Positions 341 to 27,327 of a stretch of 28,186 nt of DNA are shown one piece after another; position 1 is the first letter of the stretch; each line of letters opens with the position of its first letter. The DNA comes from a virus: positions 1-28,186 of IMG/VR virus record IMGVR_UViG_3300037961_002583; one strand, 5' to 3'. A model generated the notes under the pieces. The model had not been told where the DNA came from and did not search any database. It was given only the letters and a program-made list of their open reading frames with translations. Both the position numbers and the translations under genes were made by a program.

Positions 341-656
341 CCTTCTCGTCGAGCTAGGTGTCAAGTATGAATACGAAAGCACCAAGATCCCATATGTAAT
401 CCAACATTCCTATACGCCAGACTTCGTTCTTCCAAACGGGGTCTGGTTGGAAACCAAAGGTTATTGGGATAGTGCTGACCGTAGGAAGATCAAAGCTGTT
501 AAACAACAACATCCTGATATTGATCTTCGTATGGTGTTTCAGGCACCGTTTAACAAAATTAGTAAAAAATCAAAGACAACATATGCCAAGTACTGTGAAA
601 AGCTTGGTATTCCTTGGACATCTTGGGCAAACATCCCGCTTGATTGGCTGATATGA
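303..656 (+). CDS. Endonuclease I, Holliday junction resolvase (T7 gp3-like)
   Basis: This 117-residue protein matches T7 endonuclease I in order and spacing. T7 gp3 is a dimeric PD-(D/E)XK nuclease that cleaves branched DNA: it resolves replication and packaging intermediates and helps break down host DNA. All four catalytic positions can be seen: Glu8 in FRSGLEEK (T7 E20), Asp40 in SYTPDF (T7 D55), and Glu50 and Lys52 in VWLETKGYW (T7 E65 and K67). It starts at MAFRSGLE, which corresponds to T7 residue 14, so the short T7 N-terminal extension is missing, and the C-terminus is also shorter than T7's 149 residues. It overlaps the primase-helicase start by ATGA (653-656), implying translational coupling. 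No clear Shine-Dalgarno sequence precedes its ATG. Confidence 0.93.
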   Translation: MAFRSGLEEKVADLLVELGVKYEYESTKIPYVIQHSYTPDFVLPNGVWLETKGYWDSADRRKIKAVKQQHPDIDLRMVFQAPFNKISKKSKTTYAKYCEKLGIPWTSWANIPLDWLI

Positions 657-1561
657 CAAGCGAGTTTGAACGACACATACCTTGTGGAGAGTGTGGTTCA
701 TCGGATGGCAACAGCCTCTATACAGATGGACACACCTTCTGTTTTGTTTGTCACACCTGGAAAGGCGGAGACGGCAATGTTCACAATCACAAAACCACCT
801 ATGTACAACGAATGGAACAAAGAGGATTCCCACGCCGACTTTCAAAGCGAGGAATCTCTGAACGAGTTTGTGAGGAATATGGAATCACAGCAGATGGGGA
901 CATCTTATGCTTCCATTATCGAGACAGCTCTGGACGAATTGTTGGGATAAAGACCAAGACAAAAGACAAAGAATTTAGATACGAAGGAGAATCAGATGGG
1001 AGGTTCTTCGGCCAACATCTCTTCCGACACAAAGGAAAGAGAATGGTTATATGCGAAGGTGAGATTGATGCTGCTACGTGCAGAGAAGCGTTCCCTACAT
1101 GGGAAGCTGTGTCACTCCCGTATGGCGCAGCGGCTGCAAAGAAATCAATCAAACACAACTACGAGTGGCTTGAGAACTGGGATGAGGTCGTCCTGTTCTT
1201 CGATAACGATGATGCAGGCCGTAAGGCGACGCAGGAAGCGGCAAGCGTATTGCCACCTGGCAAGGTCAAGATCGCTGATCTCAAAAGCTATAAGGACGCC
1301 TCAGATGCCGCACAAGACAATAATCTTGAGGCGGTACGTCAAGCTATTTGGAATGCTCAACCATATAAGCCTGACGGGATTGTCGATGGAAAGTCTTTAC
1401 TTTCACTTGTAATCGAACCCCAACAGGATTGCATTCATGAGTATCCGTACCCAGGACTACAAGAAAAACTACAAGGTGTACGTGCAGGTGAGTTAGTAAC
1501 TATCACCAGCGGTACAGGCCAAGGCAACTGCACTGGGACTTATGTCTGCAGCTTGCGGTAA
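653..1561 (+). CDS. DNA primase-helicase, N-terminal part (T7 gp4-like), broken by internal deletion
   Basis: T7 gp4 makes RNA primers and unwinds DNA as a hexamer at the fork. This part has the primase zinc finger (Cys11, Cys14, Cys30, Cys33 in CGEC and CFVC), the TOPRIM glutamate (Glu135 in VICEGEIDA) and TOPRIM acidic motif (FFDNDDAGRKA, Asp184-Asp187), a linker, then the start of the helicase domain at GELVTITSGTGQG. The next residue should be the Walker A lysine, but the frame reads NCTGTYVCSLR and stops. Comparison with T7 gp4 indicates about 90-95 bases are missing at 1523-1527, removing Walker A K-S/T and the H1a LEES region and shifting the frame. Helicase motifs continue in the next entry. 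I take ATG 653, which overlaps the endonuclease stop as ATGA, over the in-frame TTG at 644. Confidence 0.9.
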   Translation: MTSEFERHIPCGECGSSDGNSLYTDGHTFCFVCHTWKGGDGNVHNHKTTYVQRMEQRGFPRRLSKRGISERVCEEYGITADGDILCFHYRDSSGRIVGIKTKTKDKEFRYEGESDGRFFGQHLFRHKGKRMVICEGEIDAATCREAFPTWEAVSLPYGAAAAKKSIKHNYEWLENWDEVVLFFDNDDAGRKATQEAASVLPPGKVKIADLKSYKDASDAAQDNNLEAVRQAIWNAQPYKPDGIVDGKSLLSLVIEPQQDCIHEYPYPGLQEKLQGVRAGELVTITSGTGQGNCTGTYVCSLR

Positions 1562-2129
1562 ACAATTTCACATAGGAACACATGAACGATCTGATCTCAC
1601 CGAGGCTTATCAAAGCACTCTTGCTCAGTGGAACCTCTATCTTTTTGATGGGTTTGGTTCTTTTGATCCTGATAACATCATCTCCCGAATTCGCTACCTC
1701 GCTGCGGGACTCGACTGCAGGATTGTATTTCTAGATCACCTCAGCATCTTGCTGTCAGGTCTAGACGGTGATGAACGGAAGATGATCGACACCACAATGA
1801 CCAAGCTTCGGTCGTTGTGTGAAGAGACAGGTATCTCGATGTTCCTTGTGTCTCACCTACGAAGAGCACAAGGCGACAAAGGACATGAAGATGGAGCAAA
1901 AGTTTCACTTGGACAGCTGCGTGGAAGTCACAGCATTAGCCAAATCTCTGACGCAGTTATTGGACTTGAACGAGATCAACAGAGTTCAGATGAACACGCT
2001 GATACAACAGTGCGAGTCCTCAAGAATCGCTTTACTGGGGAAACTGGCATCGCGTGTCAGCTGAAATACGACAAAGAAAAGTGCAAATTCTATGAATCAA
2101 AACAATTCAACCCGTCAACAGATTTTTGA
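1542..2129 (+). CDS. DNA primase-helicase, C-terminal helicase part (T7 gp4-like)
   Basis: This is the rest of the gp4-like protein in another frame. Codons in this frame are coherent from 1524 (GCA ACT GCA CTG, reading ATALGLMSAACGK); the ATG at 1542 is only the first in-frame start, not the native one. Visible helicase motifs are RIVFLDHLSILLSG (Walker B-type DH, T7 VIILDHISIVVS), DERKMIDTTMTKLR, FLVSHLRR (H3), LRGSHSISQISDAVIGLERDQ (LRGS switch and DNA-binding region) and RFTGETGIACQLKYD (arginine finger region). It ends in TDF like T7 gp4, whose acidic phenylalanine-terminated tail contacts the polymerase. Together with the previous entry and roughly 31 missing residues it would be about 525 residues, close to T7 gp4A (566). 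Confidence 0.88.
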   Translation: MSAACGKQFHIGTHERSDLTEAYQSTLAQWNLYLFDGFGSFDPDNIISRIRYLAAGLDCRIVFLDHLSILLSGLDGDERKMIDTTMTKLRSLCEETGISMFLVSHLRRAQGDKGHEDGAKVSLGQLRGSHSISQISDAVIGLERDQQSSDEHADTTVRVLKNRFTGETGIACQLKYDKEKCKFYESKQFNPSTDF

Positions 2130-5526: not shown

Positions 5527-5785
5527 AGAGGCTAAAGAGTTTGCTTCAGCGGTTGAGAATGAACCGTACGAAAATGAACTAAAGGAGCTAGCAGATCTTG
5601 TTTATGTCTGCTTCCAATACGCTGAAAATATGGAATGGGATCTAGAGGAAGCACTTGATCGTGTCCATAAATCAAACATGTCCAAGCTTGGTTTGGACGG
5701 TAAACCAATCCGCCGTGCTGACGGCAAGGTCTTGAAAGGACCGAACTACCAACCACCTATTTTGAACGATCTCGTAAATGCCTGA
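5402..5785 (+). CDS. MazG-like nucleotide pyrophosphohydrolase
   Basis: From ATG 5402 this is 127 residues. The MazG/HisE-type all-alpha fold is indicated by SDQAIEFRSAYGIQN, then LIAEEAKEFASA (the ExxE motif, metal ligands), ELADLVYVCFQYAEN (the ExxD-type second motif ELADLVY) and the C-terminal VHKSNMSKLGLDGKPI tail that is typical of phage members. Such enzymes hydrolyse NTPs or dNTPs, or possibly ppGpp, and in cyanophages have been linked to managing host nucleotide pools; the substrate here cannot be read from sequence. The start is unclear because the first 125 bases overlap DUF3310; ATG 5489 (MENRTMQRDL) would avoid this but cut a conserved helix. It overlaps the RNR ATG at 5778, giving a nucleotide metabolism cassette. 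Confidence 0.78.
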   Translation: MNSTTAHCRSKSLSDQAIEFRSAYGIQNAMENRTMQRDLIAEEAKEFASAVENEPYENELKELADLVYVCFQYAENMEWDLEEALDRVHKSNMSKLGLDGKPIRRADGKVLKGPNYQPPILNDLVNA

Positions 5786-6836
5786 ACTTATCTCTAGAAC
5801 TGGACGTGTCCAATCGTGGATTGATGATCCCGATGGCCGTCTCCCTGTGTCGTGCACAGTATTTGTAGTTGAAGATTCCATGGAAGGTCCAGAAGGCATT
5901 GAAGCCAGCTGGCGATTCGCATCACACGCCTTGCGAAATGGAGCAGGGGTTGCCATCCACCTCAGCAAACTCCGAGCCAAAGGAGACGATAATGGCAAAG
6001 GGCTTGTTGCCTCTGGTCCTGTCTCGTTCGGGAAGATCTATTCTACTTTGAATGAGGTCTTGCGTCGTGGTGGTAAATACAAGAATGGTGCAATTGTCCT
6101 TCACCTTGATGCCAATCATCCTGACATTGAGGAGTTCATCAATACACCACGTGAACAACTTCCTTGGGTCAAGCGTTGCGTTGACATCAACGAAGAGTGG
6201 TGGGAACAGATGGATGTTGTCACTCGCGTCAAGCTACTGAACAGCATGAAGCGTGGTGATGTATGGCTCAACAAAGTTAAGTATGACAATGAAGGACAAC
6301 GAATCTATGGAAATGTCTGCCTTGAAGTTTACTTGCGATCACGCGGAACGTGCTTGCTTGAACATATCAATCTCGCTGCCTGTGAGTTCGACAACATCCC
6401 GCAAGCTTTCGTTCAGGGTATGTCGGAGCTGTGCAAGCTCCACTCTCGAACTGGTGTCGGTGATACAGGAGAGTATCTCCCAGCTGAAACCGACCGTCAA
6501 GTCGGACTCGGGATGCTTGGACTCGCTAACCTTCTTAGGCGATATGGAATCACCTACAACCAATTCGGAGACGCCCTGGAATCTCTCAATTCAGGACTGG
6601 TAAAAGCATCTCCAGCATTCGAGCTTGCTAAACAACTGCGTGATGGCATTGAAGCAGCTGCTCAAATTGCCAGGCAGAACAACATGGTCCGTGCCTTTGC
6701 AATCGCCCCCACAGCGTCTTGTAGCTACCGCTCACAGGATGTTGATGGGTTTACTTCTACCCCTGAAATTGCACCGCCTATTGCCACCACTGTTGATAGG
6801 GACAGTGGCACCTTTGGTGTCCAAACATACATATAA
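5778..6836 (+). CDS. nrdA: Class I ribonucleotide reductase alpha subunit, N-terminal and catalytic part (frameshifted at 6825-6832)
   Basis: This enzyme reduces ribonucleoside diphosphates (or triphosphates) to deoxynucleotides for phage DNA synthesis. Catalytic residues can be placed: Cys26 in LPVSCTVF (E. coli C225), the radical site N-x-C-x-E as Asn179, Cys181, Glu183 in GNVCLEV, and Cys192 in GTCLLEHINL (E. coli C462). GAGVAIHLSKLRAKG and IAPTASCSYRSQDVDGF are family core motifs. No ATP-cone is present, so activity regulation through that domain is not expected. The frame stops at 6836 after GTFGVQTYI because ACAT is duplicated in tandem (6825-6832); removing one copy restores VQTYNYGDVEIA, the correct sequence. 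The ATG overlaps the MazG-like stop. Confidence 0.92.
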   Translation: MPELISRTGRVQSWIDDPDGRLPVSCTVFVVEDSMEGPEGIEASWRFASHALRNGAGVAIHLSKLRAKGDDNGKGLVASGPVSFGKIYSTLNEVLRRGGKYKNGAIVLHLDANHPDIEEFINTPREQLPWVKRCVDINEEWWEQMDVVTRVKLLNSMKRGDVWLNKVKYDNEGQRIYGNVCLEVYLRSRGTCLLEHINLAACEFDNIPQAFVQGMSELCKLHSRTGVGDTGEYLPAETDRQVGLGMLGLANLLRRYGITYNQFGDALESLNSGLVKASPAFELAKQLRDGIEAAAQIARQNNMVRAFAIAPTASCSYRSQDVDGFTSTPEIAPPIATTVDRDSGTFGVQTYI

Positions 6837-8423: not shown

Positions 8424-9283
8424 TGGCTAAACTAAGTAAGCAGGAAAGGCTTCTTAAAAGATATTCTAAGAATGGCTTTACTAAAGCTGAAAGAAAACTT
8501 ATTGCAAAAAAGCTCGGCATTAAACTTGGTCAAGCACGTAAGCTAACGCGTGCGTACGCCAAGCAATTCAAAATTGATGGCGGTCAAACTTCTGCTGGTA
8601 ATAACAAATCAACTACAAAGAACCCCTTTGGAACTAAGACTACTAGCTATGCTCCTGGGCTAAGTCTTCCTGGTACTAAGAAGCCTAAGACATCTAAGAA
8701 AAACCCCTTTGGCATTGAGACTACTAGCTATGCTCCTGGGGTAAGTCTTCCTGGTACTAAGGAGCCTAAGACACCTTCTTCTGGTGATGGGACTACTGGT
8801 GGTGGAACTACTGGTGGTGGAACTACTGGTGATGTAACTCCTGATCTCCAATCTATAATTGACGAAATTTTAAAAAATCAATCTCCGACTCCTGAGTTGA
8901 CAATTGATCCTAATATTGGCAATCTTCAAAGTGAAGTACAAACTGCCAATACCAATCTTCAAAACCTCCAAAATACTTTTAACGAATCTAACCAAAGGTA
9001 TCAAACTCAAATCGAAGGTCTTCGCGGAGACATCACTGGTTATGAGCAGCAGATTGGTGACTACCGTGGTCAGATTGATGACATGTCTAATAGGCTCTTG
9101 GAGCAAGCACAGAATGCTAGGCAATTCAAACGGATGGATACTGAGTATCTAAGTAACAACACGGCATCTGGTATTAGACTTCGGCGTTCTAAAAAGTTTA
9201 GGTCCGGTGACTTTGCTTTAGGTACAGCAGGGCTTAATCGTAAGAATCGTTCTCCACTTCAAATCTCTAATGTGAATCTATGA
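8423..9283 (+). CDS. Repeat-containing protein before portal; possible tail or head assembly protein (286 aa)
   Basis: Residues 1-50 are a basic helical domain (LSKQERLLKRYSKNGFTKAE). Residues 66-92 and 93-119 are a near-perfect 27-residue tandem repeat with core TTSYAPG.SLPGTK. A GTTGG spacer follows (residues 123-137), then a coiled-coil-like section about 160-240 (LQSEVQTANTNLQNLQNTF; GYEQQIGDYRGQIDDM) and a basic C-terminus ASGIRLRRSKKFRSG. By synteny it sits where T7 has gp7.3, the tail assembly/virion protein that also has an Arg/Lys- and Gly/Ser-rich end and lies next to the portal gene. That relation is positional inference; I see no certain homology. ATGA overlap with portal (9280). 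Confidence 0.72.
   Translation: MAKLSKQERLLKRYSKNGFTKAERKLIAKKLGIKLGQARKLTRAYAKQFKIDGGQTSAGNNKSTTKNPFGTKTTSYAPGLSLPGTKKPKTSKKNPFGIETTSYAPGVSLPGTKEPKTPSSGDGTTGGGTTGGGTTGDVTPDLQSIIDEILKNQSPTPELTIDPNIGNLQSEVQTANTNLQNLQNTFNESNQRYQTQIEGLRGDITGYEQQIGDYRGQIDDMSNRLLEQAQNARQFKRMDTEYLSNNTASGIRLRRSKKFRSGDFALGTAGLNRKNRSPLQISNVNL
8618..8779 (+). repeat. 81-bp tandem direct repeat inside the pre-portal gene
   Basis: Two units, 8618-8698 and 8699-8779, each 27 codons, with almost all differences single bases. Both encode NPFG, then TTSYAPG, SLPGTK and PKT. Three 15-base units (8789-8803, 8804-8818, 8819-8833; GGA ACT ACT GGT GGT) follow and encode GTTGG repeats. High nucleotide identity indicates recent duplication or active homogenisation. 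Confidence 0.95.
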
Positions 9284-10818
9284 CAATCGCAAAGGAAAGG
9301 TATGACGCGCTTTCCTCTACTCGTTCTCAATATCTAAAGATTGCCGAGCAAGCATCTACTCTTACACTTCCTTACTTGGTTCGTGAAGACGAAACCTATA
9401 ACAGGAGTGCACGTAATCTCATCACTCCGTATCAATCCGTTGGTGCTAAGGGTGTGGTCACTCTCGCATCTAAATTGATGCTTGCTCTTCTGCCACCTCA
9501 AACCAGCTTCTTTAAGTTGCAAGTAGATGAGGCGATGCTTGGCAGAATTGCTGATCCCCGCATCAAGTCTGAACTTGACCTTTCCTTTTCTAAGATTGAA
9601 CGTACCATCCTTGAAGCCATTGCTGCTTCTGATGATCGTGTTGTTGTACACCAAGCTTTAAAGCATTTGGTAGTAGCAGGCAACGTCTTGATCTTTATGT
9701 CAAAAGATGGTCTAAAGCTATTCCCACTTAACCGTTATGTGGTCGAGAGGGATGGTGACGGCAACGTATTGGAGATTGTTACTAAAGAACGAATCAGTAG
9801 AAAGCTACTTGAAACTGAATACGGCATTGATCCTCTTCCCCCTGTTGATGTAAACACTGACTACAGTAACTCTGAGGACGTTGACATCTACACATATGTC
9901 AAACGTGAAAAGACTTCATTTGTTTGGCACCAAGAAGCTTTTGGTGAGATCATCAAAGGCACCAAAGGTAAGGCACCTATAGCTACCAATCCTTGGATCC
10001 CTCTCCGGTTCCAAACCGTCGACGGTGAACCGTATGGTCGTGGAAGGGTCGAAGAATTTATGGGTGATCTCCAATCTCTGGAAGGTCTATCCCAAGCCAT
10101 TGTTGAAGGTTCTGCAGCAGCCGCTAAGGTTGTATTTACTGTGTCTCCCTCTAGCACTACCAAGCCATCTACTTTGGCTAAGGCAGGTAATGGTGCAATC
10201 ATCCAAGGTAGGCCTGATGACATTGGTGTTGTTCAAGTCGGTAAGACAGCAGACTTTGCTACGGCTTACCAAATGATTCAACAACTTGAACGTCGGTTGA
10301 GTGAAGCCTTCCTTGTTCTTACTGTTCGTCAGTCCGAACGTACCACTGCTGAAGAGGTGCGTATGACACAGATGGAACTAGAGCAACAGCTTGGTGGACT
10401 CTTTTCTCTTCTTACTGTTGAGTTCCTTAAACCATACTTAGCGCGTAAGCTGAGTGTGTTTGAGAAGACTGGTGAAATACCCAAGCTTCCCAAAGGCATC
10501 GTTAATCCTGTTATCGTAGCTGGATTGAATGCTTTGGGTCGTGGTCAAGACCGTGAAAGTCTTGCTCAATTCCTACAGACCATTGCACAGACAATGGGTC
10601 CAGAAGCTATTGGTCAGTACATCAACCCTGACGAAGTAGTTAAACGTCTAGCTGCTGCACAAGGTATTGACACACTTAACCTTGTCAAATCTCAGCAAGA
10701 GATACAGCAGGAGCAGCAACAGGCAATGGAACAACAACAACAGATGGAACTTACTAAGCAACAAAGTAAGTTTGCTCAGGTTGAACAACAGGCTGCAGAA
10801 GCCGCACAACAACAATAA
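9280..10818 (+). CDS. Head-tail connector (portal) protein, T7 gp8-like
   Basis: At 512 residues it is close to T7 gp8 (536). The dodecameric portal is the packaging and ejection channel at one capsid vertex. Alignable blocks include PYQSVGAKGVVTLASKLMLAL (T7 PWQAVGARGLNNLASKLMLALF), HQALKHLVVAGNVLIF (T7 FEALKQLVVAGNVLLY), the RYVVERDGDGNVLEIVTKE strand pair, DGEPYGRGRVEEFMGDL (T7 DGESYGRSYIEEYLGDL), RTTAEEVRMTQMELEQQLGG and GLNALGRGQD. The C-terminus is a Gln-rich coiled segment (QQEIQQEQQQAMEQQQQM), encoded by CAA and CAG repeats. The start codon overlaps the previous stop as ATGA; no Shine-Dalgarno sequence is needed to explain expression. Confidence 0.97.
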   Translation: MTIAKERYDALSSTRSQYLKIAEQASTLTLPYLVREDETYNRSARNLITPYQSVGAKGVVTLASKLMLALLPPQTSFFKLQVDEAMLGRIADPRIKSELDLSFSKIERTILEAIAASDDRVVVHQALKHLVVAGNVLIFMSKDGLKLFPLNRYVVERDGDGNVLEIVTKERISRKLLETEYGIDPLPPVDVNTDYSNSEDVDIYTYVKREKTSFVWHQEAFGEIIKGTKGKAPIATNPWIPLRFQTVDGEPYGRGRVEEFMGDLQSLEGLSQAIVEGSAAAAKVVFTVSPSSTTKPSTLAKAGNGAIIQGRPDDIGVVQVGKTADFATAYQMIQQLERRLSEAFLVLTVRQSERTTAEEVRMTQMELEQQLGGLFSLLTVEFLKPYLARKLSVFEKTGEIPKLPKGIVNPVIVAGLNALGRGQDRESLAQFLQTIAQTMGPEAIGQYINPDEVVKRLAAAQGIDTLNLVKSQQEIQQEQQQAMEQQQQMELTKQQSKFAQVEQQAAEAAQQQ

Positions 10819-13052: not shown

Positions 13053-13676
13053 ATGTCTTCTTCTTCGATTAGCCGACTAACCGAGCTAAATGCAATTAAT
13101 GAAGTCTTGGCAGCTGTTGGTCAAGCACCTGTCACCACACTGGATCAAACAAACCCGGACGTTTCGATTATCCAACAGACTCTCAAAAATGTGTCTCGGG
13201 AAGTTCAGTCTGAGGGTTGGCATTTTAATAAAGAGTATAACTATAAACTTACTCCTCAATCAGATCAAACAATTCCGATCACTGACAACATGCTGCAGGT
13301 TGATCTCAACCAAAGGCATCACCCAGCTAAGGATGTTGTTCGTCGTGATGGCAAGCTCTATGACAAGTGGAAAGAACCACGTGAAGATGCTTATAAGTTT
13401 GAAGATGATGTTTACGCAGACATCGTTTGGTACTTCGATTGGTTAGATCTTCCAGTGCCGATCCAAGATTACATTATTGCTAAAACTTCTACAATCGCTT
13501 CCACTCGTCTTGTAGGAGATCCTGCACAGTTTGAAATCCTTCAACAGCGTGAAGCCGGTAAACGAGCTAACGCACTTGAGTATGACTGTAATCAAGCTGA
13601 TTACACATTCTTTGGTCATCCTGAAGGTGAAAACTACTACATCAGTTATCAACCCTATAAAGCACTGTATCGCTAA
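13053..13676 (+). CDS. Tail tubular protein A (adaptor), T7 gp11-like
   Basis: At 207 residues it is near T7 gp11 (196). This protein forms the ring that joins portal to the tail nozzle. It has the typical start RLTELNAINEVLAAVGQAPV (T7 gp11 begins similarly with an ELxAINxxLxxIGE-type helix), then VQSEGWHFNKEYNY, a conserved block just after the first long helices, WYFDWLDLPVPIQDYIIAKT and the C-terminal ALEYDCNQADYTFFGH. It is the first gene after the capsid terminator, 11 bases downstream of the T-run; TAAGATATG before the ATG is a weak ribosome-binding site. Its stop TAA shares bases with the ATG of the next gene. Confidence 0.94.
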   Translation: MSSSSISRLTELNAINEVLAAVGQAPVTTLDQTNPDVSIIQQTLKNVSREVQSEGWHFNKEYNYKLTPQSDQTIPITDNMLQVDLNQRHHPAKDVVRRDGKLYDKWKEPREDAYKFEDDVYADIVWYFDWLDLPVPIQDYIIAKTSTIASTRLVGDPAQFEILQQREAGKRANALEYDCNQADYTFFGHPEGENYYISYQPYKALYR

Positions 13677-16333
13677 TGCCTGCTATCACTCAGAGAATCA
13701 ACAACTTTCTGGGTGGTGTATCGACTCAACCTGACACAAAGAAGCTTCCTGGTCAGGTTAAAGAAGCCAAAAATGTTTACCCTGATCCTGCTTTAGGTCT
13801 TACAAAAAGACCTGGATTTAAGTTCCTTGATGCTCTGCATGATGGAAGTGGCACTGATTACACTACCCCCGCCTTTGCTAATGCAAAGTGGTTTTACATC
13901 AATAGAGATGACGATGAAGTCTATCTCGGTTGCATCGTAGGTAACGCAACACCTTCTAATGCCGCTATCCATATCTGGAATGCAACCCCAGATGGCAGTG
14001 GTAACTACATCAAATCAACAGTTACCTATGGAAGCACTGGTAATCCACAAGCGTATCTAGATGCACTTACCTCCAAAGATTATGAGCTGCTTACTGTCCA
14101 AGATACTTCTATCCTTGTCAACAAAACAAAGACAGTCGCAGCACTAGCTGGAACGGCACCTACTACATTCAGTGGTTCTGTTCTTATTCGATCTATTGAG
14201 TATAGTGCTACCTATAGTGTCATCATTAATGGTACTACATACTCGTATCAAACCTACAATGCTGACAACTTTACTAATGCTTCTAATACTGACACCAAAC
14301 TGAATGCAGACACTATCCTTACAGGACTCAAGTCTGCAATTGACGGCGCTAGTATTTCAGGCTTGACTGTTGAGAAGGGTAGTAATTGTCTTGAACTGAC
14401 TAGAACATCTGCTTTTACGCTTGATGCCAAAGGTGGTGTCGGCGGTACTGCACTGCGATCCTTCCAAGATGAGGTAGACGTTGTAACAGATCTGCCTTCT
14501 GTTTCTAAGCATGGCAGGCAAGTTACTGTAGTTAATACATCAGCTTCCGCAGATACTTACTACGCAGAGTTTGTTGCTAACTCGGGTAGTGGTCTTGGCG
14601 ATGGTTATTGGATGGAAACGCTTAAGCCGGGATTGTCTCCTGGTCTAGATGCAGCCACAATGCCTCATGAGCTGATTAATACTTCGCTCAATAACTTCAC
14701 CTTTCAACAGATTTCATATACTGAGAGGCTTGTCGGTGATGACAACACTAATAGTCAGCCTAGTTTTGTTGGCGGAAAAATTAACGGTGCTTTCTTTAAT
14801 AACAACCGTCTTGGATTCTTGACAGGTGAAAATGTGTCGATGAGTCAGTCTGGTGAATTCTTTAATTTTTACCACGTCACATCGTCTGTTTCAACAGCCA
14901 ATGATCCAGTTGACCTTGCTTGCTCAAGTGTTCGTCCTTTGCAGCTTCATGCTGCTCTGCCCTCTTCGCTTGGCATGATGCTGTTTAGTCAAAATCAACA
15001 GTTCATCATGTATTCAGAGTCTGGAAACCTGACTCCTCAAGACTCTTTGATCAATGGTATGTCCAACTATGAGATGGACAAAAACATACCTCCTGTTGAA
15101 GTTGGTACCAACATTTACTTTGTCAGTAAAACACCAGCCTGGTCACGTATTTTCTCTTACACCCTACGTGGTCTACAGAATCCACCACAAGTACTTGACA
15201 TCGGAAAAGTAGTTTCCCAATACATTCCGTCTTCTGTCACTCACATGGTGAGTAGTCCTCAGAATTCATTCGTTTGTCTTTACGGTGAAACTGACAAGAC
15301 ACTCTATTTCTATCGTTTCTATGACACAGGCGAGCGTCAGGAAATGCAAGCTTGGTTTAAGTGGACTCTTCCTGGTTTTCCATTGTCTATCAATGTTGAG
15401 CAGGATGTGATGTATGCAGTTATTCAAGCCGGTAACAAGTACATCATGTGTAGCTTGAATATCTCTAGCACTCCTAGCGAAGCTATCGTTACTAGCTCTA
15501 CTGGTAATGCAGTCAATCCTTATATGGATTTTTATGCTACTGCTGCCAGTGTGACCTCACTTAATGGTGGATCCAGAATTAACCTACCTTTTGATGATAT
15601 TACTGGACTTGATCCTGTTATTCTAGTCAAGGGTTCTGGCATTAATTTTTCGAATATTAGTGAATCTGGTTTCACTGCTCCTGTTACTAAGGTTACGAGT
15701 GGTGGTTCTACATACTTTTATCTCCCTGGTAAAGATCTAAGCAGTCAGGCTAGCGACGTTGTTGTTGGTTATAAGTTCGCGTATGACGTGACTCTACCAA
15801 CTATTTACTATCAACAGACACCTGAAGGTTCACGTGTTGACTATGCAAGCTATCTTACACTTAATCGTCTCAAGTTTAGCTGTGGTGAAACCTCTAACTT
15901 TGGTCTGAAGCTCCGTGTTCAGGGTATTAGGGGTGATCAATTCACTTTCACTGGTGATGGTAGTACCACAACATTTACCTTGCCATTTACTCCGGACGAT
16001 AGGAATGACGTGGTTGTCAAAATCAACGATGTTGCCTCCACTGCATTCACAATCAATGACGCCGGCAGCATTGTCTTTTCATCTGCGCCTTCTAATGGCT
16101 CGTCTATTTTAGCTTATGAAGATTATGTCTTTGCTGAGCAAAATGCTGCTGACGTTGACTACTACTTGGCGGATGACGTAGCTATTGAAGGTGAATCTAT
16201 CTACACATTCCCTATTAATCAAAGAAACAAAAACGTGGAAATTAGAATCTTTAACAATACACCATTCCCCATTTCTTTGAGCTCAATGGTTTGGGAAGGA
16301 CAGTATTCACAACGCTTCATTAGGAGGGCATAA
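13676..16333 (+). CDS. Tail tubular protein B (nozzle), T7 gp12-like
   Basis: This 885-residue protein is a little longer than T7 gp12 (794). It forms the hexameric nozzle of the short tail. The N-terminus ITQRINNFLGGVSTQPD, then LPGQVKEAKNVYPDPALGLTKRP, is the classic gp12 opening (GVSQQP-type). Internal family motifs include GRQVTVVNTS, FNNNRLGFLTGENVSMSQSG (a hallmark FYxNRLGFLSGENVVLSR-type), FNFYHVTSS, DPVDLACSS and FSQNQQFIMYSESG. A region at about residues 750-800 (GDGSTTTFTLPFTPDD, VVKINDV) resembles the beta-rich domain also seen at the start of T7-type fibres, so a fibre-docking or fibre-derived insertion is possible. TAATG overlap with gp11-like gene. Confidence 0.95.
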   Translation: MPAITQRINNFLGGVSTQPDTKKLPGQVKEAKNVYPDPALGLTKRPGFKFLDALHDGSGTDYTTPAFANAKWFYINRDDDEVYLGCIVGNATPSNAAIHIWNATPDGSGNYIKSTVTYGSTGNPQAYLDALTSKDYELLTVQDTSILVNKTKTVAALAGTAPTTFSGSVLIRSIEYSATYSVIINGTTYSYQTYNADNFTNASNTDTKLNADTILTGLKSAIDGASISGLTVEKGSNCLELTRTSAFTLDAKGGVGGTALRSFQDEVDVVTDLPSVSKHGRQVTVVNTSASADTYYAEFVANSGSGLGDGYWMETLKPGLSPGLDAATMPHELINTSLNNFTFQQISYTERLVGDDNTNSQPSFVGGKINGAFFNNNRLGFLTGENVSMSQSGEFFNFYHVTSSVSTANDPVDLACSSVRPLQLHAALPSSLGMMLFSQNQQFIMYSESGNLTPQDSLINGMSNYEMDKNIPPVEVGTNIYFVSKTPAWSRIFSYTLRGLQNPPQVLDIGKVVSQYIPSSVTHMVSSPQNSFVCLYGETDKTLYFYRFYDTGERQEMQAWFKWTLPGFPLSINVEQDVMYAVIQAGNKYIMCSLNISSTPSEAIVTSSTGNAVNPYMDFYATAASVTSLNGGSRINLPFDDITGLDPVILVKGSGINFSNISESGFTAPVTKVTSGGSTYFYLPGKDLSSQASDVVVGYKFAYDVTLPTIYYQQTPEGSRVDYASYLTLNRLKFSCGETSNFGLKLRVQGIRGDQFTFTGDGSTTTFTLPFTPDDRNDVVVKINDVASTAFTINDAGSIVFSSAPSNGSSILAYEDYVFAEQNAADVDYYLADDVAIEGESIYTFPINQRNKNVEIRIFNNTPFPISLSSMVWEGQYSQRFIRRA

Positions 16334-16335
16334 AT

Positions 16336-18420
16336 ATGAATACCGGACTAAAAATTACTAATGTCGCTTCAAGCACTCTCGCCGGTTTTTCTATGGGTGC
16401 TTCTACAGGTATGCCTCATGTAGCTGGTATTGGCGCTGCTGTTGGTTTTGTCAGCGGTCTCTTTGGTGCCTTTGGTGGCAGCGGTGGCGGAGGTACTGGA
16501 AAAGGCATCGGTAAAAAGACAAAAGAGGCTATCCGTCTTGAAAATAAATACACCTTAGAGCAACTTAAAAAGGATGTAGCACTTGCTAAACAGGCAAATG
16601 AACGGGCTGTTGTTCTTTATAACGACCTCCGTGACGCCAAGTACGAACAAGAACTAAAGGATTACGAGCTTGCTATTGAGCAACGCAATACAAACTATAA
16701 GCAAGCCAAACGCCTTTACAAAGATAGTGTCAAGGCATTTGATGAGACTGTAGAACTGAATAATATTTCAGCGTCTATGGCGATGAATGATGCGCGTCGT
16801 GTGTATAACGATCGTCAGCAAGATCTTAATAACCGTGCCCAGGCTTTGCAGCTTGAGCTTTCTGTTGGCAAACAGTCATTCGAAATTAATAATGCTTTGA
16901 TTAACAACCAGATGTCAGCTTCTATAAGAGATGCTGAATTAAACGGTGCTGCTATCAATCGCCGTCTCCGTTCTGCTGTACGTGAAGGCAGGAACGCAAT
17001 TCAAGCGTCTACTCGCGCTTTTGAGTATGCCACGACAGCTGCCGCTAATGAACTTGCTATCAAAGGTATTCAATTAAACATTGATAGTCAGATGCTTCAA
17101 AGTGAGATGGCAACTCTCAAAGGTGAAAAGGACGCCATCATTGCATCTGCTCAACTCAAAGAGCAGGATGTCCTTAATTCTTTGGATAACAGCATCGCAG
17201 AAGCTGACTTTGCACAACAAACCCTCCAGCTTGCACAAGATGCACGCTACGCAGATGCAGCCATCCAAACGGATCAACTACGTCGCCAAGGTCTGCTACA
17301 ACAGGGTGCGCAGATTGCTAAAGGTCAATCTGGTAGATCTGCTGCGAAGTCTGTCCAGGGCATTACTTTTGCAAACCAACAGGCTCAAGCTCTTATTGCT
17401 TCATCTATTGTCCGAGCTGACGCTAAATTTTATATTGACAGAAGTAAGATTGCACAAACACTTGCTTATGCACGTCAACAGGGTCAGTCTGAGCTGAAGT
17501 CAACCGCTATTGGTCTCGACAAAGCAGAGGCTGAATTCCAAGCTGCTGGACTACGTATGGGTGCCAAGAGATCTGAACTTGGAATCCGTTCTCTTGAAGC
17601 CGATATGGTTAAAGATAAATTAAACTTTGAAAAGAATGAAGCTCAAGTCAAGAATCGCCTTATCAAAGCTGAAGTTGGAGATGCAAGGGCTTTGGCTCGT
17701 ATCGACCTAAGTCGCCTTTCTAATCAAATTCTGTCTGCTCAGGCACAATCCCAATCACAGCTGGCTAACAATGCATTGCAGCAGTACAACCTTGAACAGC
17801 AATCTAAGCTCTCCTTTGAGTCGCTTGCTTATGCAGGTCAGTCCCTCAAGGATGAACTGAAGCTCGGTAAAGAACGAATCAAGTTTGATCAATTCTTGGC
17901 TAACCGCGCTGCAGCATCTCAGGTTCTTGATGAACCGAAACTACCTGAACTTATCGGTCCCCCGAGCAAAGCACCTGATCTCGTCCAGCAACCGCTTCCC
18001 GATATTGATTGGAAGCGTATTGAAAAGATGATGAAAAAGCAACGTAAGGCTAAGAGATCTTGGAGTCCCGCAGGCTCTTCTGATTTTAATCAGTTCATGT
18101 CCAATATCAATAACATAGCTGAACAAGCTATAAACGTAGCTAATAGCTATAAGGGTGCTCCAGATGTTATGCAAACCCAAGATTACTTTTCAAGTAATGT
18201 AATGAGGGACGCTATCCAAGGTAATTCTGCTGCAGCTTACCAGCAACCCTCTTTCAATCTCAGTGCTCCTACTTCTTATGAATACCAAGGACCTGATTTC
18301 CAGATGCAATCTAATATTTTTGATGCCGACTATAGTGCTGCTGGATTTACTGATAATGCTTCTGGTTTAGCTAGCACTGATATTAACTATCAAGTACCTA
18401 CACCGACAACCGCACCATAA
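16336..18420 (+). CDS. Internal virion (core) protein, probable T7 gp14 counterpart
   Basis: ATG 16336 has the best ribosome-binding site in the window (GGAGG at 16323-16327, spacing 8). Of 694 residues, 10-50 are a Gly/Ala-rich, membrane-active-looking segment (AGIGAAVGFVSGLFGAFGG), as in T7 gp14, which inserts in the outer membrane during ejection. Residues about 60-540 are long alpha-helical coiled coil, Ala/Gln/Lys-rich, with many Asn. GQSGRSAAKSVQGITFANQQ is the region most like the GxSGxS motif of gp14 proteins. The last 150 residues are Pro/Ser/Tyr-rich. It is much larger than T7 gp14 (196), so assignment rests on order (first of three core genes), membrane segment and helices. Confidence 0.8.
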   Translation: MNTGLKITNVASSTLAGFSMGASTGMPHVAGIGAAVGFVSGLFGAFGGSGGGGTGKGIGKKTKEAIRLENKYTLEQLKKDVALAKQANERAVVLYNDLRDAKYEQELKDYELAIEQRNTNYKQAKRLYKDSVKAFDETVELNNISASMAMNDARRVYNDRQQDLNNRAQALQLELSVGKQSFEINNALINNQMSASIRDAELNGAAINRRLRSAVREGRNAIQASTRAFEYATTAAANELAIKGIQLNIDSQMLQSEMATLKGEKDAIIASAQLKEQDVLNSLDNSIAEADFAQQTLQLAQDARYADAAIQTDQLRRQGLLQQGAQIAKGQSGRSAAKSVQGITFANQQAQALIASSIVRADAKFYIDRSKIAQTLAYARQQGQSELKSTAIGLDKAEAEFQAAGLRMGAKRSELGIRSLEADMVKDKLNFEKNEAQVKNRLIKAEVGDARALARIDLSRLSNQILSAQAQSQSQLANNALQQYNLEQQSKLSFESLAYAGQSLKDELKLGKERIKFDQFLANRAAASQVLDEPKLPELIGPPSKAPDLVQQPLPDIDWKRIEKMMKKQRKAKRSWSPAGSSDFNQFMSNINNIAEQAINVANSYKGAPDVMQTQDYFSSNVMRDAIQGNSAAAYQQPSFNLSAPTSYEYQGPDFQMQSNIFDADYSAAGFTDNASGLASTDINYQVPTPTTAP

Positions 18421-18427
18421 TTAATCT

Positions 18428-21247
18428 ATGGCACAACTATTCTCCGGGTACGCCCAACAAAGGGGATTTAAACCTATCTCTACTGCCGGTCGGAGTAGAG
18501 CAATTGTTAACTCGCCTGATCTAGCTTCTGTACGCAGTATGGAGCAGGCGAGACAACTCGACCGTAACAATGCGGTCAATACACATGAGATGCTCCAAGA
18601 GCAGTTTCGTATTGACCAACAAGCTCGACAAACCTTTCTTGATCTAGAGACCCAGGCAGCAAATCTTGAGCGTAATGCCAAGATGGAAAAGTTCAATAAT
18701 GAAATTGAACGTATGCAGATTGAAGCCAAGGAACGTACCCAGTTGTACGAATCTTTGGCTGACATCTCATCTACTGCTGCTGACATCCTTGTCAAAGAAA
18801 ACGAAAAGCGTAAGAAAGCACAGCTTGAACTTAGCCAAAACCTTGTCCTTCAATATGGTCTGAATGGTGAAGAGGTTCAAGAACTTCAATCTTTAGAAGG
18901 TGGTCTGCTTGACTATGAAGCTCAGCAGACACCCCTTATTCACCGTTTGAGGCAGCAGGGTGCATCTGAAGCTGACATCAATACTTTGATGCAGAGTTCA
19001 GGATGGAATTCCTATGGTGCCGCTCTTGGTGCTGTTCAAAATGCAGGTCGCAATTACGACCTGTATCTCACCTCTAAGCAAGATGAAGATGTCACCATCA
19101 ATGGTGTCCCTATGTCCCTTGCTTCTGCTGAAGCTCAGGGTGATGTAGCTGCAATTGCTGGTATTTTTGACCGCCATCGGATGAACTACCTTCGGGAGTA
19201 TCTTCCTGGCTATGACCCTGCTTTTGTTGCTAAGCACGCACGTGAGCCTATGCAGCAGGCTGAAAGCCGTCGCAAGCGTAGTCTTTCCACACGTATGGAA
19301 ACTACGGCACGTGAAGGCAATCGTGCCAAAGAAAAGCAAAACCTCGCTATTGAACTTGGTCTTGATGGCACTCAGCCTGAACAGTTCATGAAAATTGTCA
19401 GGCGAGAAGCTGGTGGTCTTGATAGTGACACCCTTGGAACAGTCTTTAACCGTAAGACTGAACTCCTTACTGAAATGGTCAAGGATGGTGTCATTGACCC
19501 TCGATTTGCTGAAGGCATTTTGTCTTCTAATGTCTTTGCCAAACAGTTCGGTCGTGAAGCTCGGTTCACTGAAGCTTTTCCAGTTAAAGCCGCAGCACTG
19601 AGGGCTGCTATTCAAGAGCAAGATGATGAACGTCTTCGCATTCAGAATAACGCTGTAGCTGAAGAAAAGCGTCGTGGTGAGCAGATGACGCGAGCAATCA
19701 TTGCTGAGTTCGCAAATGATGAATCTAAGATGACTATAGAGAACATCACTGCCGCTCAGCGTGCTGTTCTTAAGACTGGCAATCTTGATGGTGCTAATAA
19801 ACTTGCAAAGCTCATCCCTCACAGTACTGAAAAAACTAACGATAAAGAGTTTGATAGTTACTGGACTAAGCAAAAGGCACTTGGAAACTTCCCAACAAAC
19901 GAAGACATTGTCTTTGGTGGATTGTCTGATACCAAGATGACTGCTGAGTTACAGCAACGCAAAGCCTTTGAAGAAACAGGTCTCACTACCGATGTTGTCA
20001 AAAACATTGATAAGCGTATTGAGTCATTGCTTCGTACCCAACTGGGTGAAGCCTATGGCAATACCCAACGGGTCCTGCCTGAAAGCTATTACGCAGCATT
20101 TAATGCAGCTAAGCAGCAGGTACTGCAAGACTTCCGTGTTGCCTACAAAGGTCCTCAAACAGGCATGGAAGCTGAGCAGTATGCAATTGGTGAGCTGAAA
20201 AAAGAATTACAAAAAGAGAATGGACAATACAAAGTTAATGTTATTGGTGAAGCGACTAAAGATCGTCGAGGTAAGTCTAAGTACAAGTTTGATCCTGGCT
20301 TTACTAACTTTATGGGGATTGAACCCATTAAAAAAGAAAGCTCCCTGCCTGCAATCGTAGATGCTCATGCAAATGGAACTGAAGCGTTCCGAAACGAGTT
20401 GTTCGTTGATTCTGGTAGGGTCAAAAATATTGTTAGTAATTTGAACAGTGGAGTCGCAAAGCCTTACCCTTCTGAATTTTTTGCTATCAATAAATCCTTA
20501 AAAGGTAAAGTTCCGATGTCTGAGATCATCTTGGCTCAGATTGACCAAGCTCGCAAGGAAGATCCTACAATTCCTGAGTTGAAGCCTGAAGTGAAATCTA
20601 TTTTCCAAAAAGCTGAGAAGGTAGTTTCTCCAGATATTTTGAACATCATTCAACGTTACAACACACCAGCAACGGTTGATCGTGGTCTTGTTTCCTCCGA
20701 CATTCCTGCCATTTATGACCGTAGTAATCCTTTTGTAAGTTTCGGTCGCATGATCGAATCTACTGGAAAAGTTAGGCCTGACATCATCCCTACATTCCTT
20801 GCTGTTCTTGCTGGTGAATCTGGCTTCGACCCAACAATTGATACTGCAAAGTCTGGTCTAGACCCTTATAAGCGTAACGAGTATTCCATTGGACTACTCC
20901 AGGTTAATACCAAAGCTCACATGGATAAGCTTCGTCGTCTTGGTTATACAGTCGATGATCTACGCAATCCTGTCAGAAACCTTGAAGTAGCAATGCTTGT
21001 TTATGAAGAGTGGATTGATGTACGCATGAAGGAATACGGAGACACCCTTGAAGAAGCTCAAGTGAATGCGCTGGATCGATGGGGTGCTTATTCAAACGGT
21101 AGTTACCTCAATTACCTTCCTGATGCTTTGGCTACTTGGACTAAATATAAAGGTCAAGCCTCATTACCTGTTTGGCAGCAAAGCTGCAATATGCACCCTT
21201 TAGCAAAACAATGGTGTGATAACAATCCTGGAGTTTGGAACCGATGA
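18428..21247 (+). CDS. Internal virion (core) protein with C-terminal transglycosylase domain (T7 gp15-like)
   Basis: 939 residues; T7 gp15 has 747. Residues 1-770 are mostly helical, with N-terminal coiled coil (LDLETQAANLERNAKMEKFN) and blocks typical of gp15 such as HRMNYLREYLPGYDPAFVAK. From about residue 780 it changes into a lysozyme-like SLT domain: PTFLAVLAGESGFDPTID with catalytic Glu797, EYSIGLLQVN (Gly822, canonical GLMQ), NPVRNLEVAMLVYEEW and LDRWGAYSNGSYLNYL (canonical AYNAG). It would cut peptidoglycan during DNA ejection. In T7 this domain sits at the N-terminus of gp16, so the domain has changed gene here. The last 25 residues hold cysteines (CNMHPLAKQWCD). ATGA overlap with the gp16-like gene. 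Confidence 0.9.
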   Translation: MAQLFSGYAQQRGFKPISTAGRSRAIVNSPDLASVRSMEQARQLDRNNAVNTHEMLQEQFRIDQQARQTFLDLETQAANLERNAKMEKFNNEIERMQIEAKERTQLYESLADISSTAADILVKENEKRKKAQLELSQNLVLQYGLNGEEVQELQSLEGGLLDYEAQQTPLIHRLRQQGASEADINTLMQSSGWNSYGAALGAVQNAGRNYDLYLTSKQDEDVTINGVPMSLASAEAQGDVAAIAGIFDRHRMNYLREYLPGYDPAFVAKHAREPMQQAESRRKRSLSTRMETTAREGNRAKEKQNLAIELGLDGTQPEQFMKIVRREAGGLDSDTLGTVFNRKTELLTEMVKDGVIDPRFAEGILSSNVFAKQFGREARFTEAFPVKAAALRAAIQEQDDERLRIQNNAVAEEKRRGEQMTRAIIAEFANDESKMTIENITAAQRAVLKTGNLDGANKLAKLIPHSTEKTNDKEFDSYWTKQKALGNFPTNEDIVFGGLSDTKMTAELQQRKAFEETGLTTDVVKNIDKRIESLLRTQLGEAYGNTQRVLPESYYAAFNAAKQQVLQDFRVAYKGPQTGMEAEQYAIGELKKELQKENGQYKVNVIGEATKDRRGKSKYKFDPGFTNFMGIEPIKKESSLPAIVDAHANGTEAFRNELFVDSGRVKNIVSNLNSGVAKPYPSEFFAINKSLKGKVPMSEIILAQIDQARKEDPTIPELKPEVKSIFQKAEKVVSPDILNIIQRYNTPATVDRGLVSSDIPAIYDRSNPFVSFGRMIESTGKVRPDIIPTFLAVLAGESGFDPTIDTAKSGLDPYKRNEYSIGLLQVNTKAHMDKLRRLGYTVDDLRNPVRNLEVAMLVYEEWIDVRMKEYGDTLEEAQVNALDRWGAYSNGSYLNYLPDALATWTKYKGQASLPVWQQSCNMHPLAKQWCDNNPGVWNR

Positions 21248-25410: not shown

Positions 25411-27327
25411 ATGGCTGTAACTGAAAATCTTTATACAGGGGACGGGTCTACCGTCCTCTATTCCTTCACATTCCCATATCTTGCGACCACTGACGTTAAG
25501 GTTTCTCTTAACGGGTCTGATACAACTGCATATTCTTTAGCCAACGCTACTCAAGTTCAACTTAATACTGCTCCTGCATCTGGTGTTGCTATTAGGGTTT
25601 ACCGTGACACCTCTGATGCTTCACTCACTGCTGAATTCTTTCCGGGTGCTGCCATTAAGTCTACGGACCTCAATAACAACTTTACTCAAAACCTGTACGT
25701 CACGCAGGAGTCTAACGACATTGCAGAGAAAGCTACCACTACTGCTAACACTGCAAAATCTACTGCTGACAGTGCAACCACTACAGCTAATGGTGCTGTT
25801 ACTACGGCCAATGCCGCGTCTGCCAGTGCTGCTTCTGCAGTAACTACTGCTAACACTGCATCTACCAATGCAACTAATGCTGTCAACACTGCAAACACTG
25901 CATCTACTAACGCTACTTCAGCTGTAAATACTGCGAACACAGCTTCTACTAACGCTTCTACAGCACTGTCTACAGCAAACACTGCCAATACCAACGCCAC
26001 TACTGCGCTTAACAACTCTCGCGAAAGTGATGGTGCAGGTGGTTTTACTAGCGCTATCTCAAAAGCCAATACAGCAATTACGACAGCAAACACAGCATCG
26101 TCTACAGCGACTACAGCTTCAACTAATGCTAGTTCTGCTGTAACCACTGCTAATGCTGCTTCCGCGACTGCTACAGCGGCACAAAATGCTGTGAACGCTG
26201 TTGTCTTGTACGACGCCGTTACCAATGTCTCTAGTATTCCTGGCTCACCTAGTGACGGTGATCGGATTGAAGTTGCAAATTCCACGGGTATCGAATCATT
26301 TACGCCACTTGCTGGAATCCCCTCTGGTTTTACTGGTAACTCGCAACTTGCTGTACGTCTCAACTACACAAGCTCTGGTAGTACTTGGAATTGGGTTGAC
26401 TACAGAGCACCCGACCCTGACGCCAGGTATTTCACTAAGTCTGCTGGTGACACCAATACAACTAATATCTCTACTAATACCACCAATATCGCTACCAAGA
26501 TGCCTTTGGCAGGAGGTACATTCACTGGTGCAGTCAACTTTGACGATAATGTCGTCATCAAAGGTGACACAACCAACGGTAGTGGCAAGCTAACGCTTAA
26601 CTGTGAGAACAACTCTCATGGTGTCAACATTAAAGGTCCACCGCACAGTGCTGGTGCTACCTACACGCTTACGTTGCCTGACGACACAGGTACTAATGGT
26701 CAAGCTCTGACTACAAATGGCTCTGGTGTGTTGTCTTGGTCATCACTATCTGCACCTGTTGCGAGTGTAAATGGCAATACAGGTACTGTCGTTTTGACAG
26801 CATCTGATGTTGGTGCTGCTACTACCGCACAAGGCACTCTTGCGGCTAGCGCACTGCAGTCATCTGATATTGGTGTATCTATACAGGCTTATGACGCCAA
26901 TCTTCCTTCTGGTAGCACTATCTTGGTTGATGGTGATGTTGGTGTTGGTGTACAAGCTTATGACGCTGATACTGCAAAGACTGACGTTGCTCAATCCTTT
27001 ACTGCTGCACAGCGTGGTTCTATCACTACGTTGACCTCTGGTGCGACTGTAACGCCTGATTTTGCTGCAGCTAATAACTACACCCTGACCCTTGGTCATA
27101 ACGCCACCGTTGCTAACCCTACAAATCTGACTGCTGGTCAATCTGGGTCCATCTTCCTTGTCCAGGATGGTACTGGATCGCGTACGGCTGCCTGGGGTTC
27201 TTATTGGGACTTTGCTGGGGGTACTGCACCGACGTTGACGACAACGGCTAGTGCTGTTGATCGTATTGATTATGTCGTTCGTAGTTCTACCTCTATTCAC
27301 GCAGTCGCTACCCTTAATTATTCATGA
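25411..27327 (+). CDS. Tail fibre protein with T7 gp17-type N-terminus
   Basis: 638 residues in four parts. Residues 1-105 are the virion-attachment domain of T7 tail fibre: ENLYTGDGSTVLYSFTFPYL, VRVY-type strand GVAIRVYRD, and the signature IKSTDLNNNFTQNLYV. Residues about 107-260 are an Ala/Thr/Asn coiled rod of heptad and 14-residue repeats. Residues 270-340 are a small domain found in many cyanophage fibres (YDAVTNVSSIPGSPSDGDRI). Residues 390-480 contain VNGNTGTVVLTASDVGA, a common trimeric fibre motif. Residues 540-638 are a beta domain with TLTSGATVTPDFA, NPTNLTAGQSGSIFLVQDG and AVDRIDYVVRSS, frequent at cyanophage fibre ends. It should form a trimer that recognises the host surface. 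Stop overlaps the next ATG (ATGA). Confidence 0.92.
   Translation: MAVTENLYTGDGSTVLYSFTFPYLATTDVKVSLNGSDTTAYSLANATQVQLNTAPASGVAIRVYRDTSDASLTAEFFPGAAIKSTDLNNNFTQNLYVTQESNDIAEKATTTANTAKSTADSATTTANGAVTTANAASASAASAVTTANTASTNATNAVNTANTASTNATSAVNTANTASTNASTALSTANTANTNATTALNNSRESDGAGGFTSAISKANTAITTANTASSTATTASTNASSAVTTANAASATATAAQNAVNAVVLYDAVTNVSSIPGSPSDGDRIEVANSTGIESFTPLAGIPSGFTGNSQLAVRLNYTSSGSTWNWVDYRAPDPDARYFTKSAGDTNTTNISTNTTNIATKMPLAGGTFTGAVNFDDNVVIKGDTTNGSGKLTLNCENNSHGVNIKGPPHSAGATYTLTLPDDTGTNGQALTTNGSGVLSWSSLSAPVASVNGNTGTVVLTASDVGAATTAQGTLAASALQSSDIGVSIQAYDANLPSGSTILVDGDVGVGVQAYDADTAKTDVAQSFTAAQRGSITTLTSGATVTPDFAAANNYTLTLGHNATVANPTNLTAGQSGSIFLVQDGTGSRTAAWGSYWDFAGGTAPTLTTTASAVDRIDYVVRSSTSIHAVATLNYS
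25731..26190 (+). repeat. Heptad and 42-bp repeats in the tail fibre rod
   Basis: Degenerate tandem repeats of 21 and 42 bases (for example units beginning at 25879, 25921 and 25963) encode 14-residue units like AVNTANTASTNATS. The seven-residue periodicity of Ala implies a trimeric coiled-coil rod. Such repeats let rod length vary by slippage. Confidence 0.88.

Follow-up and report, generated by a model that had tools for sequence, protein, structure and literature searches.

Virion-associated lysins have been described for phiKMV (gp36), SP6 (gp36) and K1-5 (gp38), with the phiKMV domain placed C-terminally (PMC5380687). The C-terminal lysozyme of phiKMV gp36 is active on P. aeruginosa, and SP6 gp36 and K1-5 gp38 provide further precedent (PMC5380687; PMC8954989). 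In T7, the wall-cutting domain is instead an SLT domain at the N-terminus of gp16 (residues 15-127), with E37 named as the catalytic residue (PMC8954989). A wall hydrolase on the gp15-position protein is therefore an arrangement already known from the published phiKMV, SP6 and K1-5 cases.

Here we analyse a 28,186-nucleotide stretch of viral DNA (IMG/VR record IMGVR_UViG_3300037961_002583, hereafter the window), probably a fragment. An earlier note on this DNA had presented the position of its SLT domain as a departure from T7; the novelty of this is overstated, since a hydrolase on a gp15-type protein had been published for phiKMV, SP6, K1E and K1-5. Very probably, the 939-aa protein of the window is a T7 gp15-type ejection protein with a predicted peptidoglycan-cutting domain of its own, and its C-terminus is a port at which hydrolase modules are gained or swapped rather than the result of a gene boundary having shifted once.

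The window and its C-terminal domain

ORF calling and Pfam place a T7-type structural module in the window, running from portal to tail fibre (Table 1). The 939-aa protein is encoded downstream of the nozzle gene, between the gp14-like and gp16-like genes. The gp14-position protein has 642-694 aa in the close clade of the window, whereas most relatives have one of about 280-320 aa and that of T7 has 196 aa. Residues 757-811 of the nozzle protein, close to its C-terminal end, match the N-terminal domain of the T7 tail fibre over a short length, with a score below the cut-off (E 4e-4). Towards the start of the window (644-2129), parts of a primase (Zn ribbon, Toprim) and of a DnaB-type helicase lie in overlapping ORFs (644-1561 and 1542-2129), as opposed to the single gp4 gene of T7-like phages, which would reflect either a split gene or a sequencing error. 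A ribonucleotide reductase large-subunit barrel domain is matched as two pieces at 5778-6836.

Table 1. Coordinates of the structural module and of the motifs of the C-terminal domain in the window
Feature	Position	Strand	Basis
Portal	9280-10818		
Nozzle (gp12-like) gene; anchor of the survey	13676..16333	+	Pfam Phage_nozzle E=9.8e-179
gp14-position internal virion protein, 694 aa (putative function)	16336..18420	+	Synteny, ORF
gp15-like tunnel/core protein with predicted C-terminal wall hydrolase, 939 aa	18428..21247	+	ORF; phrog_24152 E=1.4e-27; T7 gp15 fold matches; hhalign to P-SSP7 gp15
SLT / lysozyme-like domain, residues 772-908	20741..21151	+	HMM built here; Pfam SLT
Putative catalytic Glu797 and Ser798 (ES motif)	20816..20821	+	Invariant in alignment A12; aligns with ES of T7 gp16
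GLLQ motif, residues 822-825	20891..20902	+	G and Q invariant in alignment A12
WGAYSNG motif, residues 885-891	21080..21100	+	W and A invariant in alignment A12; matches WEAYTNG of S-CBP3 and L045
ATGA overlap of gp16-like start and gp15-like stop	21244..21247	+	Sequence; shared by L004/L005
gp16-like internal virion protein without SLT, 1384 aa	21244..25398	+	phrog_6651 E=2.2e-183; no Pfam SLT
gp17-like tail fibre	25411..27327	+	Pfam Phage_T7_tail E=3.3e-15

The earlier note had read 20765-21247, that is residues 780-939 and the stop codon of the 939-aa ORF (18428-21247), as an SLT domain forming the C-terminus of the protein encoded just upstream of the gp16-like one. An SLT/lysozyme-like domain is confirmed at this C-terminus. 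Pfam SLT (PF01464) matches residues 789-858 with E=1.2e-5 and 25.3 bits (curated cut-off 21.3), and the excised domain alone reaches E=1.1e-6 and 28.7 bits. Within the close family of the domain, SLT is matched by each of the six members and SLT_3 by five of them (best 2.8e-14), and the profile of the six-member family matches a solved lytic transglycosylase, EtgA (4xp8), with E=2.1e-5. The extent needs correction, from residues 780-939 to about 772-908, as placed by an HMM built here that had the window protein among its own seeds.

The SLT motif set can be read in the window protein, with ES at E797-S798, the GLMQ-type motif as GLLQ (822-825) and the AYN-type motif as AYSNG (887-891), the last with a one-residue insertion. 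In the alignment of the six-member family (A12), E797-S798, G822 and Q825 do not vary, even in members with as little as 30% identity, and W885-x-A887 is also kept in distant members. When residues 764-939 were modelled by themselves with AlphaFold (pLDDT 77), Foldseek gave no lysozyme-like match, and the model puts a helix where the motif hairpin would be expected; it was built from four sequences, which is too few. The identification of the domain thus rests on profiles and motifs. In the full-length model, a helix-hairpin-helix is predicted for residues 784-838. From the sequence we infer catalytic activity, with putative lysozyme or transglycosylase chemistry.

The gp15-like protein and its gp16-like neighbour

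The 939-aa protein is likely of the T7 gp15 type, and its predicted fold is suggestive of this. In a Foldseek search with the AlphaFold2 full-length model (33 sequences, mean pLDDT 77, pTM 0.36), T7 gp15 took ranks 1, 3, 4 and 5 of 350,542 chains (6yt5_A, 7eyb_A, 9jyy_G and 6ysz_A), at probabilities of 0.66-0.97, E-values of only 0.011-0.29 and low TM-scores. The gp15-like family also aligns with P-SSP7 gp15 (hhalign E=7.9e-7, 577 columns), whose own record reads ‘assigned by synteny and size’; gp15 in general has been assigned in much the same way (PMC8954989). Homology to T7 gp15 was not detected by hhalign of the gp15-like profile (prob 0.1), the gp15-like and gp16-like profiles gave nothing significant against single T7 and phiKMV proteins, and the PDB, searched by sequence with the full gp15 alignment, returned chance-like matches only. 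The names gp15 and gp16 therefore rest on synteny and a weak fold match. The earlier description of the upstream protein as gp15-like holds for gene position and is suggested by the fold, but does not extend to detectable sequence homology with T7.

The 1384-aa protein is called gp16-like by position only. It falls in phrog_6651 with P-SSP7 gp16, while T7 gp16 and phiKMV gp37 are in phrog_342, and its start, read as coiled coil in the earlier note, is an E/Q/A-rich stretch (residues 1-40). As the earlier note had stated, it lacks the SLT domain of its T7 counterpart: Pfam SLT was not found over its whole length, and a Pfam wall hydrolase was found in none of 46 gp16-like proteins within the N-terminal 250 aa. 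When profiles of SLT, glucosaminidase, M23, Hydrolase_2 and GH24 were run against the gp16-type proteins compared, only T7 gp16 matched anything. The candidate of an SLT domain hidden in the gp16-like N-terminus was rejected on these results, the SLT profile having matched T7 gp16 alone.

The hydrolase slot in relatives and its origin

A search of viral contigs with the gp15-like protein returned no relative, whereas the gp16-like protein and the nozzle profile did find them. The nozzle profile retrieved 80 IMG/VR loci, to which cultured cyanophages and SP6, K1-5, phiKMV and T7 were added. Gene order across the survey is regular: a gp14-like gene is followed by a gp15-like one (820-1110 aa in most cases) and then by a gp16-like one (1300-1440 aa in most). 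Over their first 600 residues, 48 gp15-like proteins group into a single BLAST cluster, whereas their C-termini fall into unrelated classes. In the last 320 residues, Pfam identifies M23 (11/47), glucosaminidase (9/47), SLT (8/47), SLT_3 (5/47) and Hydrolase_2 (1/47), some proteins having two domains; the layout has a glycosidase from about residue 730-770 and M23 after it, near 900-930. Cultured phages fill the slot in different ways, with SLT_3/SLT in S-CBP3 (774-856), SLT (744-848) and M23 in S-CBP4, glucosaminidase in S-CBP1 and DSL-LC07, glucosaminidase and M23 in S-SRP01, and Hydrolase_2 in S-RIP2. The gp15-position protein of SP6 matches Pfam Phage_lysozyme.

A recognised hydrolase, defined by an HMM match at E<1e-6 (a cruder regular-expression scan for SLT and M23 was dropped), is present in 26 of the 56 cyanopodovirus-type gp15-like proteins and in none of their gp16-like proteins. 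The survey of cyanopodovirus gp15/gp16 pairs that the earlier note had proposed places the hydrolase on the gp15-like side, but the slot holds several families and not one shifted SLT. No hydrolase was recognised in the other 30 of the 56, a class that may include undetected domains, so not every relative fills the slot. No recognisable wall hydrolase was found in the gp15-like proteins of P-SSP7 (L002), P-SSP3 (L093), S-RIP1 (L094), S-TIP37 (L095) and NATL1A-7 (L096), nor in the gp16-like proteins scanned.

Several C-termini carry partial or unassigned modules. In the glucosaminidase-type gp15-like proteins of S-CBP1 (L003), DSL-LC07 (L089), L083, L084, L087 and L088, the C-terminal end is half of an M23-like domain (profile positions ~13-67 of 117 where matched) that lacks the HxH motif, and the other half is absent from the next gene. 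In S-CBP3 (L001), L045 and L029, a tail made up of the last 100 aa follows SLT or replaces it; its HxxGxAxD and HxH-type motifs resemble a D-Ala-D-Ala peptidase (M15-like), and it has no Pfam match. In the gp15-like protein of L082 (6286-9621), SLT and half an M23 come after a remnant glucosaminidase, whereas the close relatives of L082 have glucosaminidase only; this looks like a recent module insertion.

Did the SLT domain of the window move across a gene boundary, or was it swapped in? According to the earlier note, the T7 gp16 domain had moved: the stop and start codons would have slid across it in a T7-like ancestor, leaving the N-terminal SLT of gp16 on the end of gp15. The order of domains along the DNA is that of T7, the match of phiKMV gp37 to the T7 gp16 family begins only at profile position 168 (that is, gp16 without its SLT), and one SLT in the same slot, that of L072, is close to that of T7 (BLAST 2e-16). 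However, a single ancestral SLT left behind by a sliding boundary should give a window SLT near that of T7 and SLT-bearers related to one another. At E<10, BLAST gives no match between the window SLT and that of T7, unrelated folds occupy the same place in relatives, and in phiKMV and SP6 the slot holds a GH24-type lysozyme instead of an SLT. Moreover, SLT is polyphyletic on a gp16 tree of 49 rows, from which the part near the junction was left out. The hydrolase classes require at least nine changes on this tree and SLT presence at least four, counts that do not separate gain from loss. They were unchanged when long-branch rows were removed, and a single SLT clade was rejected (p-AU 2.5e-5). 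A boundary slide is thus improbable as the origin of the domain, and replacement of modules at a fixed port fits better. With different hydrolases gained or swapped as modules at the C-terminus, the window represents one instance of a modular slot.

Alternatively, the domain could be a catalytically dead lysozyme-like fold, retained to cap the tunnel as a wall-binding or structural element. The insertion in its AYN-type motif is compatible with such a role, and the ends with half an M23 and no second zinc motif, found in some members of the group, imply that non-catalytic remnants may exist. Against this, the ES pair and the G and Q of the GLLQ motif are kept in all six family members, and the repeated switching of relatives to other wall-hydrolase families suggests that hydrolysis is under selection; we regard a dead fold as highly improbable.

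The two genes share four bases at the gp16-like ATG (21244) and are in different frames, as would suit an SLT that in fact belongs to the 5' end of the gp16 gene, cut off by a sequencing error or programmed frameshift, but this reading is hardly credible given that two further contigs (84% and 65% gp16 identity) have the same junction, the isolates S-CBP1, S-CBP3, S-CBP4 and S-SRP01 have a comparable arrangement, and no start lies in the gp16 frame between the preceding stop and 21235. The two contigs, L004 and L005, were assembled independently, and the junction is therefore not an assembly artefact; S-CBP1 also has a four-base overlap between its gp15-like and gp16-like genes.

Returning to module replacement, a broader version of it seems to us evenly balanced between right and wrong. 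The gp15-type C-terminus of cyanopodoviruses would be a dedicated exchange port, in which at least four families (SLT/SLT_3, glucosaminidase, M23, Hydrolase_2 and possibly more among the unassigned members) are mounted singly or in tandem on one conserved tunnel protein and tuned to the wall chemistry of the host, the tunnel protein itself opening the wall before the gp16-type protein leaves the head. We found no description of this diversity of hydrolases in the open-licence literature. Such a fold-diverse slot is of more interest than the arrangement in the window itself.

Ejection and comparison with known systems

The location of the domain may fairly be taken to bear on the order of ejection. 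By analogy with T7, the core proteins would probably leave the head in the order gp14-, gp15- and gp16-type, in which case the hydrolase would arrive ahead of the gp16-type protein. Entering the periplasm on the tunnel protein, earlier than the gp16-type protein and without need of it, the enzyme would open the wall; the tunnel could then extend, and the gp16-type protein and the DNA would follow. Fusion to gp15 would put the enzyme in roughly the same place as in T7 without waiting for gp16, and at the copy number of gp15. According to the T7 record, a virion contains about 12 copies of gp15 and 3 of gp16. Later cryo-EM work reportedly arrives at copy numbers for the two proteins that differ from these. 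As with the catalytic activity, we infer the order and timing of ejection.

Several consequences follow for how these phages are annotated and studied. In many cyanobacterial podoviruses, the wall hydrolase of the virion can be placed on a protein annotated as ‘hypothetical’ or ‘tape measure’, and the T7 arrangement, with SLT on gp16, is not general. In T7 the hydrolase exits with the last protein, whereas here it would be expected to exit with the tunnel protein, in gp15 copy number, which makes its role in core ejection testable. The choice of hydrolase may track the type of host wall.

T7 and the window share the gene order nozzle, gp14, gp15, gp16 and fibre and an SLT at the gp15/gp16 junction, and a weak match suggests a similar gp15 fold; they differ in the gene that carries it and in the SLT branch to which it belongs. 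An experimental parallel is phiKMV gp36, a gp15-position internal virion protein with a C-terminal wall hydrolase that is active, and phiKMV gp37, like the gp16-like protein of the window, has no N-terminal SLT. The hydrolase of phiKMV is, however, a GH24-type lysozyme and not an SLT, and the bodies of gp36 and of the window protein have no detectable sequence similarity. SP6 gp36, K1-5 gp38 and K1E gp35 likewise carry a lysozyme on the gp15-like protein, in a contrast with T7 that the literature notes (PMC5380687; PMC8954989), and differ from the window in having Pfam Phage_lysozyme and enterobacterial hosts. The Synechococcus phages S-CBP3 and S-CBP4 have an SLT at the C-terminus of the gp15-like protein, annotated ‘hypothetical’, and a gp16-like protein without SLT, as in the window, so the SLT version of the arrangement is already present, unannotated, in public genomes. 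S-CBP4 adds an M23 peptidase and S-CBP3 an extra tail after the SLT, whereas the window protein ends shortly past its SLT domain.
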